From Chryseobacterium indologenes (GTDB lineage: Bacteria > Bacteroidota > Bacteroidia > Flavobacteriales > Weeksellaceae), in the NCBI GenBank assembly GCA_016025055.1, contig CP065590.1:62001-126000 (forward strand): 64,000 nt of DNA. Direction: 5' to 3'. The translations under genes and the position numbers were made by a program. Each line of letters starts with the position of its first letter. Within the stretch, counting starts at the first letter, position 1. The notes under the pieces were generated by a model. It did no database searches and was not told where the DNA came from. It saw only the letters and a program-made list of their open reading frames with translations. Positions 26,586 through 55,016 of the stretch are shown here, piece by piece.

Positions 26586-26823
26586 CATTAAAGTTAGCTA
26601 AAAGAAGTTGCCTTGATCCGACTTTACACAATTCTTAAAAAATCGGACTTATTTTACCTTTTCAACAAAGACATTTGAGCTTCAATTCAATAACCATTGA
26701 ATTAAAAAACATAAAAAAAGACTTATTATAGCAAAATACTCAAAATAAAAATACAAATTATAAATTGAAAATCAATACATTAAATTCATTAACGATAAAT
26801 TAATATTTAAATTCCCTACTTTT

Positions 26824-26857
26824 TTAGTGGACTAATAAAAATTATATTATATATTTG
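26824..26857 (+). promoter_or_regulatory. predicted promoter of the leader peptide/metNIQ transcript
   Basis: TATATTTG (26850-26857) matches TAnnTTTG. A T-rich -33 region lies near 26824, without a clean TTTG. The leader ATG is 26 bp downstream. Confidence 0.5.
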
Positions 26858-26882
26858 CACCGTATTCAGGAAAAAAAATAAA

Positions 26883-26981
26883 ATGACGGCAGAATTAAAT
26901 AATAATTCAATAAAGAAACATAGCATCAAAAAAATGATGATGGCTACGTGTATGCCTATGCATCATGAATACTGTGGGTGA
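26883..26981 (+). CDS. Met-rich leader peptide (32 residues), probable attenuator
   Basis: An ATG at 26883 opens a 32-codon frame ending in KKMMMATCMPMHHEYCG. Five of the last 15 codons are Met and two are Cys. It is too short for normal gene calling but is followed by a strong terminator (27008-27038) and then by an amino-acid-type exporter and metNIQ. Directly after its stop codon CCTTAC (26982-26987) can pair with GTAGGG (27025-27030), the 3' arm of the terminator. A ribosome stalled on the Met codons would leave CCTTAC free to make an antiterminator, and one reaching the stop codon would cover it. This is classic attenuation logic but untested. Confidence 0.65.
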   Translation: MTAELNNNSIKKHSIKKMMMATCMPMHHEYCG

Positions 26982-27007
26982 CCTTACTTTTTATATGACA
27001 TATTTTT

Positions 27008-27038
27008 AAAGGCCCTACCAAGTTGTAGGGCCTTTTTT
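27008..27038 (+). terminator. intrinsic terminator in the metNIQ leader
   Basis: AAAGGCCCTAC pairs with GTAGGGCCTTT around CAAGTT and is followed by a T run. It lies in the 5' untranslated region, 42 bp before the EamA gene, which fits an attenuator better than the end of a separate gene. Confidence 0.85.
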
Positions 27039-27079
27039 GTTAAAAAAACACGAAACACAACAACATTAAAAAAATAAAA

Positions 27080-28078
27080 ATGAGCAATTCTAAAAACAAA
27101 TGGCTGGTTCCATTGGCGTTTACAAACATTTATGTAATATGGGGAATTACGTTTTTAGCTATTTCATTTGGCTTAAAAGGTTTTCCGCCATTCATTCTTT
27201 CGGGATTGAGATTTCTCGTAGCAGGAATTCTGATGATCGGATATCTCCTTTCAAAAGGAGAAAGAGCAAATTCTCTGACCAACTGGAAGAAAAATGCCAT
27301 CACCGGAGTGCTTATTCTTACAGGAGGAACAGGTCTGGTAGCCTGGGGAGAACAATATGTAACAGCTTCTGAAGCTGCCATTTCTATTGCGACAGGTCCT
27401 TTTTGGTTCATTGCCATCGACAGAAAAAACTGGAAATATTATTTTTCAGACAAATTTATTCCGATAGGGCTGGCCATCGGGTTTGTAGGATTGGTATTCT
27501 TCTTAAAAGGAAGTGTACATTCCAATGCAGCCCATGCTATGGTTGACGGAAATCTTAGAATTACAGCATTTATAGTCTTAGGGCTGAGTTCTATTGCGTG
27601 GGTGCTGGGTTCTTTATATTCGAAAAAAAATCCGGCCTCTCATTCTACATTCATGAATATTGCCCAACAATTAATTGTAGCGGGGGTAGCAGCCTTTCTG
27701 ATTGCTTTTATCAGAGGAGAATGGACGCATTTTTCGGTTTCTGCAGTTCCTTTGCCGGCATGGTTTGGTGTTCTGTTTTTGATTTTCTTTGGATCAATAG
27801 TCGCTTATTTGTCGTACATTTGGCTCTTGTCCGTGAAACCCGCAGCCCTTGTAAGCACCCATACCTACATCAATCCTATTGTAACCGTGATTGCAGGCTG
27901 GATTGTTGCCAACCAGAGCATCAATGGAAGCCAGTTGTATGGTTTGGCCACTATATTGCTGGGAGTACTGTTGACGAATGTCACCAAGTACTTTAAACTT
28001 TCAAAACGGTCAAAAGTTAAATTAAGAAGAGTAAGAAGATTTTTTAATAGGACAAATAAGCGATACCAGCCTATTTAA
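27080..28078 (+). CDS. EamA/DMT-family transporter
   Basis: The protein has 332 residues and ten predicted transmembrane helices arranged as two EamA repeats (about 8-140 and 155-290). Motifs include IWGITFLAISFGLKGFPPF and the later LVSTHTYINPIVTVIAGW, both typical of the drug/metabolite transporter family. A basic tail (about 305-332) is cytoplasmic. Relatives export amino acids or metabolites. It lies 17 bp upstream of metN and behind the Met-rich leader, so methionine or a related thiol compound is a reasonable substrate guess. Confidence 0.87.
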   Translation: MSNSKNKWLVPLAFTNIYVIWGITFLAISFGLKGFPPFILSGLRFLVAGILMIGYLLSKGERANSLTNWKKNAITGVLILTGGTGLVAWGEQYVTASEAAISIATGPFWFIAIDRKNWKYYFSDKFIPIGLAIGFVGLVFFLKGSVHSNAAHAMVDGNLRITAFIVLGLSSIAWVLGSLYSKKNPASHSTFMNIAQQLIVAGVAAFLIAFIRGEWTHFSVSAVPLPAWFGVLFLIFFGSIVAYLSYIWLLSVKPAALVSTHTYINPIVTVIAGWIVANQSINGSQLYGLATILLGVLLTNVTKYFKLSKRSKVKLRRVRRFFNRTNKRYQPI

Positions 28079-28095
28079 TAGTATAAAATATCAGA

Positions 28096-29123
28096 ATGAT
28101 AGAAATTAAAAACATTTCAAAAACTTTTCACCAGAAGAAACAGTCGTTTAAAGCGCTGGATCAGGTGAGTCTCAATATAGAAAAAGGAGATATTGTAGGA
28201 ATTATAGGGTTTTCCGGTGCCGGAAAGAGTACCCTGATCCGTACGGTAAATCTTTTGGAAAGACCGGATGAAGGACAGATTATCATTAATGGAAAAGATT
28301 TTACCAGATTAAGCTCAAAGCAGCTGGCTGAAGAGCGTAAAAAAATCGGAATGATCTTTCAGCACTTCAATCTTCTTTCTTCGAGAACGGTTTTTGATAA
28401 TGTAGCGCTTCCTTTGGAGCTGGATCACCTTAGTAAAGAGCAAATCAGTAAAAAAGTATATGAACTCCTGAAAATCGTAGGCCTTGAAAATAAAGCCCAT
28501 GATTACCCAAAAAGTCTTTCGGGGGCCAGAAACAGAGAGTAGCAATTGCAAGAGCATTGGCAAATGATCCGCATCTTCTGCTTTGTGATGAAGCTACCAG
28601 CGCCCTTGATCCGGTGACCACACAATCTATTTTACAGCTTTTGAAGGATATCAATGAGCGACTGGGTATTACCATTCTTTTAATTACCCATGAAATGGAG
28701 GTTATCAAAGCGGTTTGCAACCACGTTGCCGTGATAGACCACGGAAAGTTATTAAAAAAAGGAACTTTAAGTGAGATTATTTCGGACAGAGAAAATCCGG
28801 TAATCCGACAATTTATAAATTCAGATGTCATGACCCTGCCACAGGAATTCAACAGCAGACTACAGAAAGAACCGAAGGAAGGTTTATTTCCGCTGGTCGA
28901 AATCGAACTCAATGAAAATTTTAGTGTTGAACAGATTCTTTCAGCATTATACAACCAACATAAAATCCCTTACAAACTTTTGAAAGCTGATGTGGAATAC
29001 TTCGGAAATTCAAATGTCGGAAAACTGTTGCTTCAGCTTCAGGGAGAAGAGGAAGCCAACCAACAGGCCATCTCTTATTTTAATCAGAACAAAATTCAAA
29101 ATACAGTAAAAGGATATGCTTAG
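28096..29123 (+). pseudogene. metN: methionine ABC transporter ATP-binding protein, frame broken in the signature motif
   Basis: The first frame holds Walker A ([10 protein letters not shown]) and the Q-loop ([14 protein letters not shown]). It breaks at a five-G run (28521-28525), where six are needed for the signature [17 protein letters not shown]. The second frame has Walker B (LLLCDEATSALD), the H-loop (LITHEMEV) and a C-terminal NIL domain (about 265-340), which in MetN senses methionine for trans-inhibition. The restored length is about 342 residues, normal for MetN. It would hydrolyse ATP to drive D/L-methionine uptake with MetI and MetQ. The stop overlaps the metI start. Confidence 0.92.
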
Positions 29124-29772
29124 TGATGCGGTAATTGCCCTTTTGGCAAAAGGAACCTGGGAAACGGTTTACATGACATTTGTATCCGGCTTTTTTGGAT
29201 TTGTTTTAGGACTTCCGGTCGGAATTTTTTTATTTTTAACAAGAAAAGGGCAACTATTGGAAAATGCACTGTATCACAGAATATTGTCCATAGTAGTGAA
29301 TATTTTCCGGGCCATTCCTTTTATTATCTTAATTGTTTGGATGATTCCTTTTACCAGGATTCTGGCAGGAACTTCCATCGGAGTGAATGCCGCTTTGGTT
29401 CCTTTAAGTGTGGGGGCTGCACCATTTATTGCAAGACTGGTAGAAAACAGTTTACTCGAAGTTCCTCACGGATTGATAGAAACAGCAAGAGCTCTAGGCG
29501 CTTCACCTTTTCAAATTATCAGAAAAGTATTGCTTCCCGAAGCATTACCTTCCTTAATCAATAATGCAACCATTACGTTAATTACCCTTGTCGGATATTC
29601 TGCGATGGGAGGTGCTGTAGGTGCAGGAGGTTTAGGCCAGGTGGGATACCAGTACGGATATATCGGCTATGATATTGTGATTATGAACACCGTCCTGATA
29701 TTGCTTGTGCTGCTGGTATTCATTATCCAGTTTGCAGGAGACCGATTTTCAAAGCATTTTGACCACAGATAG
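29116..29772 (+). CDS. metI: methionine ABC transporter permease
   Basis: The protein has 218 residues and five transmembrane helices. The EAA loop that docks with the ATPase is ETARALGASPFQIIRKVLLPEALP (about 120-143), and the C-terminal GYSAMGGAVGAGGLGQVGYQYGY is the MetI signature. It forms the inner-membrane channel for methionine. It overlaps metN by 8 bp and precedes metQ. Confidence 0.93.
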   Translation: MLSDAVIALLAKGTWETVYMTFVSGFFGFVLGLPVGIFLFLTRKGQLLENALYHRILSIVVNIFRAIPFIILIVWMIPFTRILAGTSIGVNAALVPLSVGAAPFIARLVENSLLEVPHGLIETARALGASPFQIIRKVLLPEALPSLINNATITLITLVGYSAMGGAVGAGGLGQVGYQYGYIGYDIVIMNTVLILLVLLVFIIQFAGDRFSKHFDHR

Positions 29773-29870: not shown

Positions 29871-30677
29871 ATGAAAAAAATAAAAATCTTAGGATTACTG
29901 GCTGCCGGAGTTCTTCTCTTTACTGCTTGTTCGGGAAGGAAAGATGACCCCAACTTTATCAGAGTGGGAATAACCTATGGACCAGAGCAGGAAATTGCTG
30001 AAGTCGCCAAAAAAGTAGCGAAAGAAAAATATAATCTGGAAGTGGAACTTATCCCTTTCAATGATTATGTAGTTCCGAATGAAGCCCTGACCAACGGTGA
30101 TATTGATGCCAATGCTTTCCAGCATGTTCCTTATTTAACGGAACAATCCAAGCAGAGAGGGTATAACCTGGCGGTTGTGGGTAATACTTTTGTCTATCCT
30201 ATTATTGCGTATTCAAAAAAGATCAGCAACATCAGCCAACTGCAGAACGGAAGTACGATTGTGATTCCTAATGACCCTACCAACGGCGGGCGTTCCTTGC
30301 TTCTCTTACAGAAAAATGGTTTATTAAAACTGAAAGACGGCGTTGGTCTTCTTCCTAAAGTTACCGATATTACAGAAAATCCAAAGCAACTTAATATCAT
30401 GGAAATTGAGGGTGCTCAGATTCCAAGAGTGCTGGACGACAGGGATGTTGTGGTAGGAATCATCAATAATAATTTTGCGGCACAGGCCGGTCTGGATTCC
30501 GAAAAACAAGGTATCATTAAAGAAGATAAAGATTCTCCTTATGTGAATGTAGTTGTTGCAAGACAGGACAACAAAAACAGCCAGAAGGTAAAAAACTTCG
30601 TCAAAGCGTATGAATCCGATGAAGTGGAAAAGAAAGCAAAAGAAATTTTCAAAGGAGGTGCGGTGAAAGGATGGTAG
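29871..30677 (+). CDS. metQ: methionine-binding lipoprotein MetQ (NlpA family)
   Basis: The protein has 268 residues with a lipobox (LLFTACSG, Cys about 20). The NlpA/MetQ fold begins IRVGITYGPEQEIAEVAKKVAKEKYNL and includes FNDYVVPNEALTNGDIDANAFQHVPYL and NPTNGGRS-like PNDPTNGGRSLLLLQK, motifs of substrate-binding MetQ proteins. It is the lipid-anchored solute receptor of the MetNI transporter and ends the operon. The gap from metI (about 100 bp) holds a GGAGAGTT-type short repeat. Confidence 0.92.
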   Translation: MKKIKILGLLAAGVLLFTACSGRKDDPNFIRVGITYGPEQEIAEVAKKVAKEKYNLEVELIPFNDYVVPNEALTNGDIDANAFQHVPYLTEQSKQRGYNLAVVGNTFVYPIIAYSKKISNISQLQNGSTIVIPNDPTNGGRSLLLLQKNGLLKLKDGVGLLPKVTDITENPKQLNIMEIEGAQIPRVLDDRDVVVGIINNNFAAQAGLDSEKQGIIKEDKDSPYVNVVVARQDNKNSQKVKNFVKAYESDEVEKKAKEIFKGGAVKGW

Positions 30678-53983: not shown

Positions 53984-54351
53984 TTTAGATCAGTATAAAT
54001 GAATTAAAATTATTGGGTCCAAAATAAGGGGAAGCTGAAAACCTTCAACTAGAGTAAGCAACAAATCAAAAACTTTTTATTATGAAAAATTTTAAATTAT
54101 TATTAGGTGCGGCAGTAGTATTTGCCGTTGGAAGCGCTTTTACTGCTAGCAACAAAGCTTATGCAGGAGAATATGTTTTAATCGCTCCTAATACTTATGA
54201 GCTTAAAACAAATCGACCTGCCGGAGAATGCCGAGAAATGCCAAGTCAAATTTGTGATTATACCAAAATTAATCCATCTGGCAGTAATACAGATCCAAAT
54301 AACTTCACCCCTAATACGAGAAATGCCCAATGGGTTGAAGGTGAGGACTAA
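53936..54351 (+). repeat. tandem duplication, copy 1 (mauE tail plus peptide gene)
   Basis: The last 50 bp of the MauE gene, the spacer and the peptide gene align with 54612-55016. The spacers are almost identical (GGGTCCAAAATAAGGGGAAG and on), and so are the first 24 codons of the peptide genes. Confidence 0.85.
54082..54351 (+). CDS. small secreted two-cysteine peptide, copy 1 (DUF6520-like)
   Basis: The peptide has 89 residues. A signal peptide (about 1-28, KLLLGAAVVFAVGSAFTA ... AYA) precedes a short mature part with two cysteines 8 residues apart (Cys50 and Cys58: RPAGECREMPSQICDY). The C-terminal half is hydrophilic and Asn/Pro-rich (SGSNTDPNNFTP). It resembles small secreted peptides of the DUF6520 type encoded beside MauE and SusCD/TlpA genes in other Bacteroidota; I have not verified this against any database. 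The conserved Cys pair suggests an intramolecular disulphide. Function unknown. Confidence 0.75.
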   Translation: MKNFKLLLGAAVVFAVGSAFTASNKAYAGEYVLIAPNTYELKTNRPAGECREMPSQICDYTKINPSGSNTDPNNFTPNTRNAQWVEGED

Positions 54352-54611: not shown

Positions 54612-55016
54612 AACAAGATAAATTCGTCCAATCATTTACTTTATAACCCGCTAGAATAATTTAGATCAGTATAAGTGAATTAAAATTATTGGGTCCAAAA
54701 TAAGGGGAAGCTGAAAACCTTCAACCAGAGTAAGCAACAAATCAAAAACTTTTTATTATGAAAAATTTTAAATTATTATTAGGTGCGGCAGTAGTATTTG
54801 CCGTTGGAAGCGCATTTACTGCAAGTAATAAAGCTGCTGGAGAATATGTGCTAATTGGTTCTACTTACCAATTAAAATCAAGTAGACCTTCGGGGGGATT
54901 GTGTAACTCAGTCTAGTCAAACCTGTGATTACACTAAAATCAATCCGTCCGGTAGTAATACCGATCCTAATAATTTCCAACCTTATCACACAAATGCTAG
55001 ATGGGTTGAAGAATAG
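54612..55016 (+). repeat. tandem duplication, copy 2 (mauE tail remnant plus peptide gene)
   Basis: It starts with a decayed remnant of the MauE gene's last 16 codons, then repeats the spacer and peptide gene of 53936-54351. The region between (54352-54611) is AT-rich and contains no gene. Confidence 0.85.
54758..55016 (+). pseudogene. small secreted two-cysteine peptide, copy 2, frame broken
   Basis: Reading starts MKNFKLLLGAAVVFAVGSAF and runs to RPSGG before an early stop. Removing one G from the six-G run at 54892-54897 gives RPSGDCVTQSSQTCDYTKIN and ends at 55016, an 85-residue parallel of copy 1. The Cys pair spacing is identical. The early part is nearly identical to copy 1 at DNA level. 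The middle differs (YVLIGSTYQLKSSRPSGD against YVLIAPNTYELKTNRPAGE), so the copies have diverged where the mature peptide starts. Confidence 0.7.

Follow-up and report, generated by a model that had tools for sequence, protein, structure and literature searches.

A methionine- and cysteine-rich leader frame as a candidate translation-coupled attenuator of the metNIQ importer operon in Chryseobacterium

Upstream of the methionine importer operon of Chryseobacterium indologenes, a short reading frame rich in methionine codons is followed by a sequence with the appearance of an intrinsic terminator. This arrangement raises the question of whether translation of the frame decides if transcription proceeds into the importer genes and, if so, through which alternative RNA structure. 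The window, that is, the whole stretch of DNA that was analysed, comprises 64,000 nucleotides of contig CP065590.1, and the features relevant to the question are listed in Table 1. The locus was compared with homologous leaders of the genus and with metN loci of other genera, and it is interpreted as a ribosome-mediated transcription attenuator of (EamA-)metNIQ that would read charged tRNA-Met and probably charged tRNA-Cys, an interpretation considered very likely.

Table 1. Coordinates of the leader, its putative regulatory elements and the downstream genes in the window.
Feature	Positions	Strand	Basis
Probable operator (CCCTACTTTTTTAGTGGACTAAT), an inverted repeat preceding the promoter	26814..26836	+	regular expression, homologues
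Promoter element, TATATTTGC	26850..26858	+	sequence; among the homologues listed
Frame of the leader peptide (32 codons plus stop)	26883..26981	+	MTAELNNNSIKKHSIKKMMMATCMPMHHEYCG; homologues
Met18-Met19-Met20, proposed stall codons	26934..26942	+	homologue residue counts
Cys23-Met24-Pro25-Met26, further Cys/Met codons	26949..26960	+	homologue residue counts
Segment 2, putative antiterminator 5' strand (GTGGG-TGA-CCTT), GTGGGTGACCTT	26974..26985	+	pair probabilities, compensating changes
Segment 3, terminator 5' arm common to terminator and antiterminator, AAGGCCCTAC	27009..27018	+	
Intrinsic terminator stem-loop, then T run	27008..27035	+	11 pairs
EamA-family transporter gene	27080..28078	+	PF00892
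metN, methionine importer ATPase, frame-broken between 28542 and 28557	28096..29123	+	
metI, permease	29116..29772	+	NF008049 MetI above cut-off
metQ, substrate-binding lipoprotein	29871..30677	+	NF008285 MetQ above cut-off

The identity of the downstream genes as EamA, metN, metI and metQ, proposed from the sequence at the outset, is borne out by domain matches, including PF00005 and the NIL domain for the pieces of the broken metN. This gene lies in two frames, split near a run of five G, whereas the homologues that were read are intact; the break may be a sequencing error or may mark a pseudogene. Elsewhere in the window, two matches to the DUF805b RNA (RF02914) lie above the gathering score (54025-54060 and 54701-54736).

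The 32-codon frame with its Met cluster is present in the window as described originally and has homologues across the genus. The peptide holds five internal Met and two Cys in 31 codons; the corresponding frequencies over seven protein stretches of the window are 1.3% for Met and 0.2% for Cys, and the joint excess has a binomial probability of 3.5e-7 in a test chosen after the fact. Folding of the entire leader of the window is also better than that of shuffled versions (z -2.5), of which 5 in 200 did as well. Among 173 genomes of the genus, the peptide was recovered in 149 by a single-sequence search (E<=10), and by a 25-row profile in 167 at E<=1 and in 161 at E<=1e-3. The pattern TGYATGCC-N17-GTGGNTRACC has exactly one occurrence per genome in 119 of the 173 genomes, and zero occurrences in all 173 when read backwards as a control. 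Twelve genomes of the genus have a weak peptide match or none; eight of them lack metN (E<=1e-60), and inspection of the four that carry it revealed a diverged leader in three.

For closer comparison 90 loci were read, namely the 30 best matches and 60 chosen from the list, and 23 leaders of the genus added later bring the set to 113. L089 (a spurious match) and L002 (a weak second match) were left out, L043, whose terminator was missed by the script, was excluded from the duplex tests, and L037 stops at the contig end. The counts exclude L092-L106, L145-L147 and the diverged leaders inspected separately, and the leader region of L290 (G137) is not included.

Conservation of the Met codons across Chryseobacterium had been proposed as a check and was found: Met19 occurs in 89 of 89 homologues, Met18 in 85 and Met20 in 58, and in the larger set both an MM pair and a Cys among residues 18-26 are present in 112 of the 113 leaders. 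A CMP core is seen in 83 of 89 loci (100 of 113 in the larger set) and stands 7 codons before the stop in 87 of the 89 and 8 codons in the other 2; unlike this near-constant spacing, codons 26-30 are variable at each of their three bases. At the end of the frame the bases GTGG are mostly kept while the last two residues change (CG in 62 loci, RG in 15, SG in 7, GD in 3 and RS in 2, n = 89). This holds too for the 49 of 113 leaders that do not end in CG, in which the final Cys codon has given way to Arg, Ser, Gly, Val or His. The suggestion that the element also senses Cys, made on account of the last codons, is supported for the Cys codons adjoining the Met cluster and not for the final one, which is replaced in these leaders. 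Cys is enriched like Met, and every lineage has it next to the Met codons; sulfur amino acids in general may thus be the signal.

In 75 distinct frames of 32 codons, third-base variation over codons 2-17 is 0.43 versus 0.23 and 0.28. When close pairs are compared, 27% of the codon changes by one base are silent versus 16% expected without selection, the pairs being non-independent and transition bias uncorrected. Both signals make the frame look translated. The prevalence of third-position variation in the first half of the frame, and the many possible metal ligands in the peptide, would also suit a small independent gene (for a micropeptide or small RNA) closed by a constitutive terminator, with metNIQ reached by read-through or from an unseen promoter. 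Such a gene, however, leaves unexplained the pairing of the frame end with the terminator 5' arm described below, the free variation of residues 26-30 and the link to metN across genera, and is regarded as very improbable. Within the genus this link is close: metN lies downstream in 88 of the 90 loci read, with or without EamA, the remainder being a contig end and the spurious match. In 22 of the 88 loci with readable downstream genes EamA is missing and metN comes directly after the leader, which therefore belongs to metNIQ and not to EamA.

The recurrence of the CMP core could also point to nascent-peptide arrest, in which the Met/Cys/Pro stretch would stall in the exit tunnel on a free ligand such as Met, SAM or a metal. 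In its favour, codons 22, 23 and 25 show a third-base bias (C, T, T) beyond what the amino acids require; this stretch may also be held at the RNA level. MM and the nearby C are nearly invariant, and Pro is not. Against arrest, Pro is replaced by Arg, Ser, Ala or His in L166, L284, L287, L288, L291 and L070, and other genera have a different core in which Met and Cys return. Moreover, arrest at high Met would turn the importer on at the wrong time. Arrest is judged improbable, and in its Pro-dependent form is disfavoured by the replacements. A small hairpin, CATCA:TGATG, lies over the Met codons of the window (approximately 26925-26941) and of homologues with a mean pair probability of about 0.5-0.6; it is a possible polymerase pause hairpin.

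The strong terminator noted after the frame was corroborated. Sites resembling terminators show no enrichment there as a class (6 versus 5.2 in shuffles), and the stem-loop in question has the most pairs of the six. In 77 homologues 98.9% of its cells are paired and 28 cells are changed on both sides, and a terminator between leader and first gene is found by script in 126 of 127 leader rows, the exception being L043. The original prediction had set against this terminator a pairing of CCTTAC, right after the stop codon (26982-26987), with GTAGGG in the terminator 3' arm (27025-27030). Both motifs were located in the window, where they can form six pairs, and 87% of the cells of this helix are paired in the 77 homologues versus 31-52% in slid versions. 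However, its second pair (17/71) is broken in 46 of the 77 distinct homologues, zero pairs are changed on both sides, every shuffle scores as high, and the 3' arm is synthesized last, after its 5' arm partner. On these homologues the pairing was rejected, and hardly any credence is given to it; the partner favoured by the comparison is instead the terminator 5' arm.

In the window, positions 26974-26978 can pair with 27018-27014 and 26982-26985 with 27012-27009, so that the 5' strand of the antiterminator begins inside the last codons (GTGG) and spans these codons, the stop and the next four bases. As predicted from its pairs, the antiterminator is mutually exclusive with the terminator and overlaps the end of the frame. 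In most species it takes the form GTGGT:ACCAC plus CCTT:AAGG, and GTGGG:CCTAC (the window) or GTGGA:TCTAC where the loop has lost ACCAC; compensated forms are GGAGT:ACTCC in L083 and L139, GCGGA:TCTGC in L010 and CATGGT:ACCATG in L164. When 110 distinct leaders were folded without constraint up to the 3' arm, the antiterminator was the main long-range helix, with mean pair probabilities of 0.64-0.66 for GTGG:CCAC, to which a second register adds 0.16-0.17, and of 0.62-0.77 for CCTT:AAGG. Mean duplex energy over 88 distinct pairs was -11.62 kcal/mol with own partners versus -10.62 with swapped ones, and 0 of 2000 permutations were as good, relatedness being uncorrected. On the other side, within the genus an average of 30% of the foreign partners bind better than the own one and few double changes occur per antiterminator pair, and in 10 of 112 leaders the helix at the end of the ORF is limited to 4 bp. 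When the two registers are counted separately on a fixed alignment, register A is modest: 91.3% of its cells are paired versus 91.0% in shuffles, which it does not surpass in further pair types either. Register B scores better.

A local hairpin around the stop codon (GTGGN..CTTAC) was tried as an anti-antiterminator and discarded, about 100 of 500 shuffles being as good. No clear protector (1:2) hairpin was seen in the folded leaders of the genus, where only a 5'UTR:GAATAC helix appears, at a mean probability of about 0.3.

The effect of ribosome position was modelled on RNA of the window that ends short of the terminator 3' arm, with an assumed footprint size. The antiterminator forms with Met18, Met20, Met24 or Pro25 in the A-site, and does not form with the A-site at the stop. 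In the proposed mechanism, when Met and Cys are sufficient the ribosome would reach the stop codon and cover GTGGGTGACCTT, whereupon the terminator arms could pair and transcription would stop. A shortage of Met (or Cys) would make the ribosome stall on the Met/Cys cluster, which begins 15 codons before the stop in the window, leaving GTGG-N-TGA-CCTT bare to pair with the terminator 5' arm; with the antiterminator formed, polymerase would continue into the importer genes. Comparison thus supports well the class of mechanism first proposed, in which translation of a Met leader governs the choice between terminator and antiterminator and a ribosome at the stop codon masks the switch. Its basis lies in features read from the sequences themselves: conserved frame, Met/Cys codons, terminator, exclusive antiterminator and near-constant spacing. 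Translation, stalling, the direction of the response and the identity of the signal are what we infer from them. The completed terminator greatly exceeds the antiterminator in stability, and the attenuator model therefore depends on kinetics. That methionine shortage limits initiation too counts against reading the leader as an attenuator.

The peptide profile gives no confident match outside the genus in the family (best E 0.0046), and leaders of other genera were therefore located via metN, a rare gene found in 18 of the 71 other family genomes searched (out of 147) and in 59 of 395 genomes of an order-wide sample. In four further genera (g9, g24, g22 and g35) metN is likewise preceded by leaders with Met/Cys clusters; of these genera, g35 belongs to another family, and in g24 and g22 the leader was seen in one genome each. 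All 14 of these leaders bear the clusters in a similar layout, with a largely different antiterminator sequence. The g9 leader, present in 4 of 6 genomes, has the core MIMCYQMAMP or MIMCLCMAMP and the putative antiterminator GTATCGG-gt-GATT:AATC-ca-CCGATGC (GTATCAG:CTGATAC in L148); the g9 MetN, although the best match, scores below its NCBIfam cut-off (445 of 499.7 bits). In g24 the peptide reads KMIMCCHIH and the pairing is TTGCTGTAA:TTGCAGCAA. In g22 two tandem leaders, KMMSYCKCM and KMMMCYRMKM, stand before EamA, with GTTGTATTGG:CCGATACAAC and with TGTCGTA:TACGACA plus CCTT:AAGG; this locus (L137) holds two complete leader-terminator units, both Met/Cys-rich, and also a group II intron match (2474-2645). 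Leaders were found at 8 of 10 g35 loci, for example MMCCNAVM with GGCTT:AAGCC.

Against 1000 mononucleotide shuffles per leader, p is <=0.03 in 9 of the 14, with values of 0.000-0.018 for the six leaders of g9, g24 and g22. Support in g35 is more uneven: p is 0.013-0.112 in six leaders, and five of the eight exceed 0.03, among them L130 and L135, which give no antiterminator signal in this test. The elements of g9 and the first of g22 are similar to one another and not independent: the pairing of the g9 strand is slightly stronger with the terminator of the first g22 element (-15.3) than with its own (-14.5). The Met cluster starts 14-17 codons before the stop in most leaders, L132 and L135 being exceptions. 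A CCAG:CTGG-type helix, seen by eye in the predicted folds of 6 of 8 g35 leaders, is a candidate 1:2 protector hairpin in that genus. No Met leader of the window type was seen on inspection of the metN loci of g11, g3, g31 and g10, nor at L134 and L136 among the ten g35 loci. Short frames with a Cys pair (such as FVCC or FCCY), followed by a terminator and a more distant metN, occur at L113, L115, L116, L121, L142 and L230, and are perhaps a cysteine-type leader. Taken across Flavobacteriales, a dual Met/Cys attenuator of metNIQ that would read elongator tRNA-Met charging, with an antiterminator rebuilt in several genera and the distance from cluster to stop roughly kept, appears a reasonably probable interpretation.

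Transcription of the leader may be under a second control. The promoter element TATATTTGC is of a type that we take to be the flavobacterial -7 element, and the regular expression for the inverted repeat upstream of it matches in 106 of the 113 leaders compared; in the other 7 the sequence departs from it by few bases. Near-perfect copies of the repeat lie elsewhere in the same genome (loci L183, L184 and L186), where they adjoin an Rrf2 regulator gene with a TauE (exporter) gene, a protein with a NIL match just below the Pfam cut-off, and a peroxiredoxin-like gene (by eye only). With two mismatches allowed the search returned fewer matches than its control (37 versus 86 in all), so that only near-perfect copies count. 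These loci form a possible sulfur regulon, and through the operator, which perhaps serves a regulator of the Rrf2 type, the operon may respond to sulfur status as well.

Attenuation by leader peptides is classic. In the attenuators of trp, his, leu, thr and phe operons, the leader carries control codons for the amino acid in question, the antiterminator uses the 5' arm of the terminator, and a ribosome at the stop codon masks it. The Chryseobacterium leader would resemble them in these three respects, and differs in having Met/Cys codons before an importer and no evident 1:2 protector in the genus of the window. Leader attenuators for other amino acids have been predicted in Bacteroidetes/Chlorobi. 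The Bacteroid-trp leader RNA (RF01692) belongs to Bacteroidetes (PMC2864571) and has been likened to the E. coli trp leader with its Trp-rich peptide and alternative structures (PMC6414381). A search of Rfam at a loose threshold gave 19 matches, none near its own cut-off, of which Bacteroid-trp was the most telling; the full-model alignment of the window leader is weak (26.7 bits versus a gathering score of 49, E 0.55). Unlike Bacteroid-trp, the peptide has no Trp, and its Met/Cys codons precede an importer operon instead. Given the sub-threshold score and the missing Trp, the leader is not a member of RF01692, though it would work like one.

RNA control of methionine genes is also exerted by SAM riboswitches and T-boxes, the latter being named before methionine transporter genes in a figure legend of one source (PMC2965389). 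The sensor in the window differs in being a translated frame, and no Rfam family, SAM riboswitches and T-boxes included, was matched at the gathering score in the leaders of the window, L107, L110, L137, L127, L129 and L083. In Mycobacterium, Cys leader peptides precede cys operons, and the authors saw no conserved terminator hairpin (PMC1262725). These share with the Chryseobacterium leader the codons for sulfur amino acids, and differ in that they involve cysteine only and come from Actinobacteria.

The original prediction was aware of no methionine leader described before metNIQ in Bacteroidota. None was found in open PMC papers among the matches listed, and one is reported in Streptomyces (PMC8079986). 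This is metL of Streptomyces lividans TK24, a leader of 29 residues with Met and Cys identified from RNA-seq directly before metNIQ; its authors describe the transcript as leaderless and a typical Rho-independent terminator as missing, so that no switch was defined in S. lividans (PMC8079986). As far as the papers searched show, such a leader has so far been described before metNIQ in Streptomyces alone, where no clear terminator accompanies it; in Chryseobacterium all parts of the probable switch are seen, in another phylum. If the interpretation holds, it provides a complete comparative picture (control codons, terminator and covarying antiterminator) of a Met/Cys leader switch, and a testable point at which Chryseobacterium and related bacteria would control their uptake of sulfur amino acids. 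It would also offer a natural system for how the ribosome reports shortage of methionine, which is needed for initiation as well, with charging of elongator tRNA-Met being read although the same synthetase feeds initiation. The leader is like metL in preceding the metNIQ importer operon and in mixing Met with Cys; unlike that actinobacterial leader, it has a terminator and a covarying antiterminator and recurs across genera, and together the two would indicate that the same idea has arisen in two phyla.
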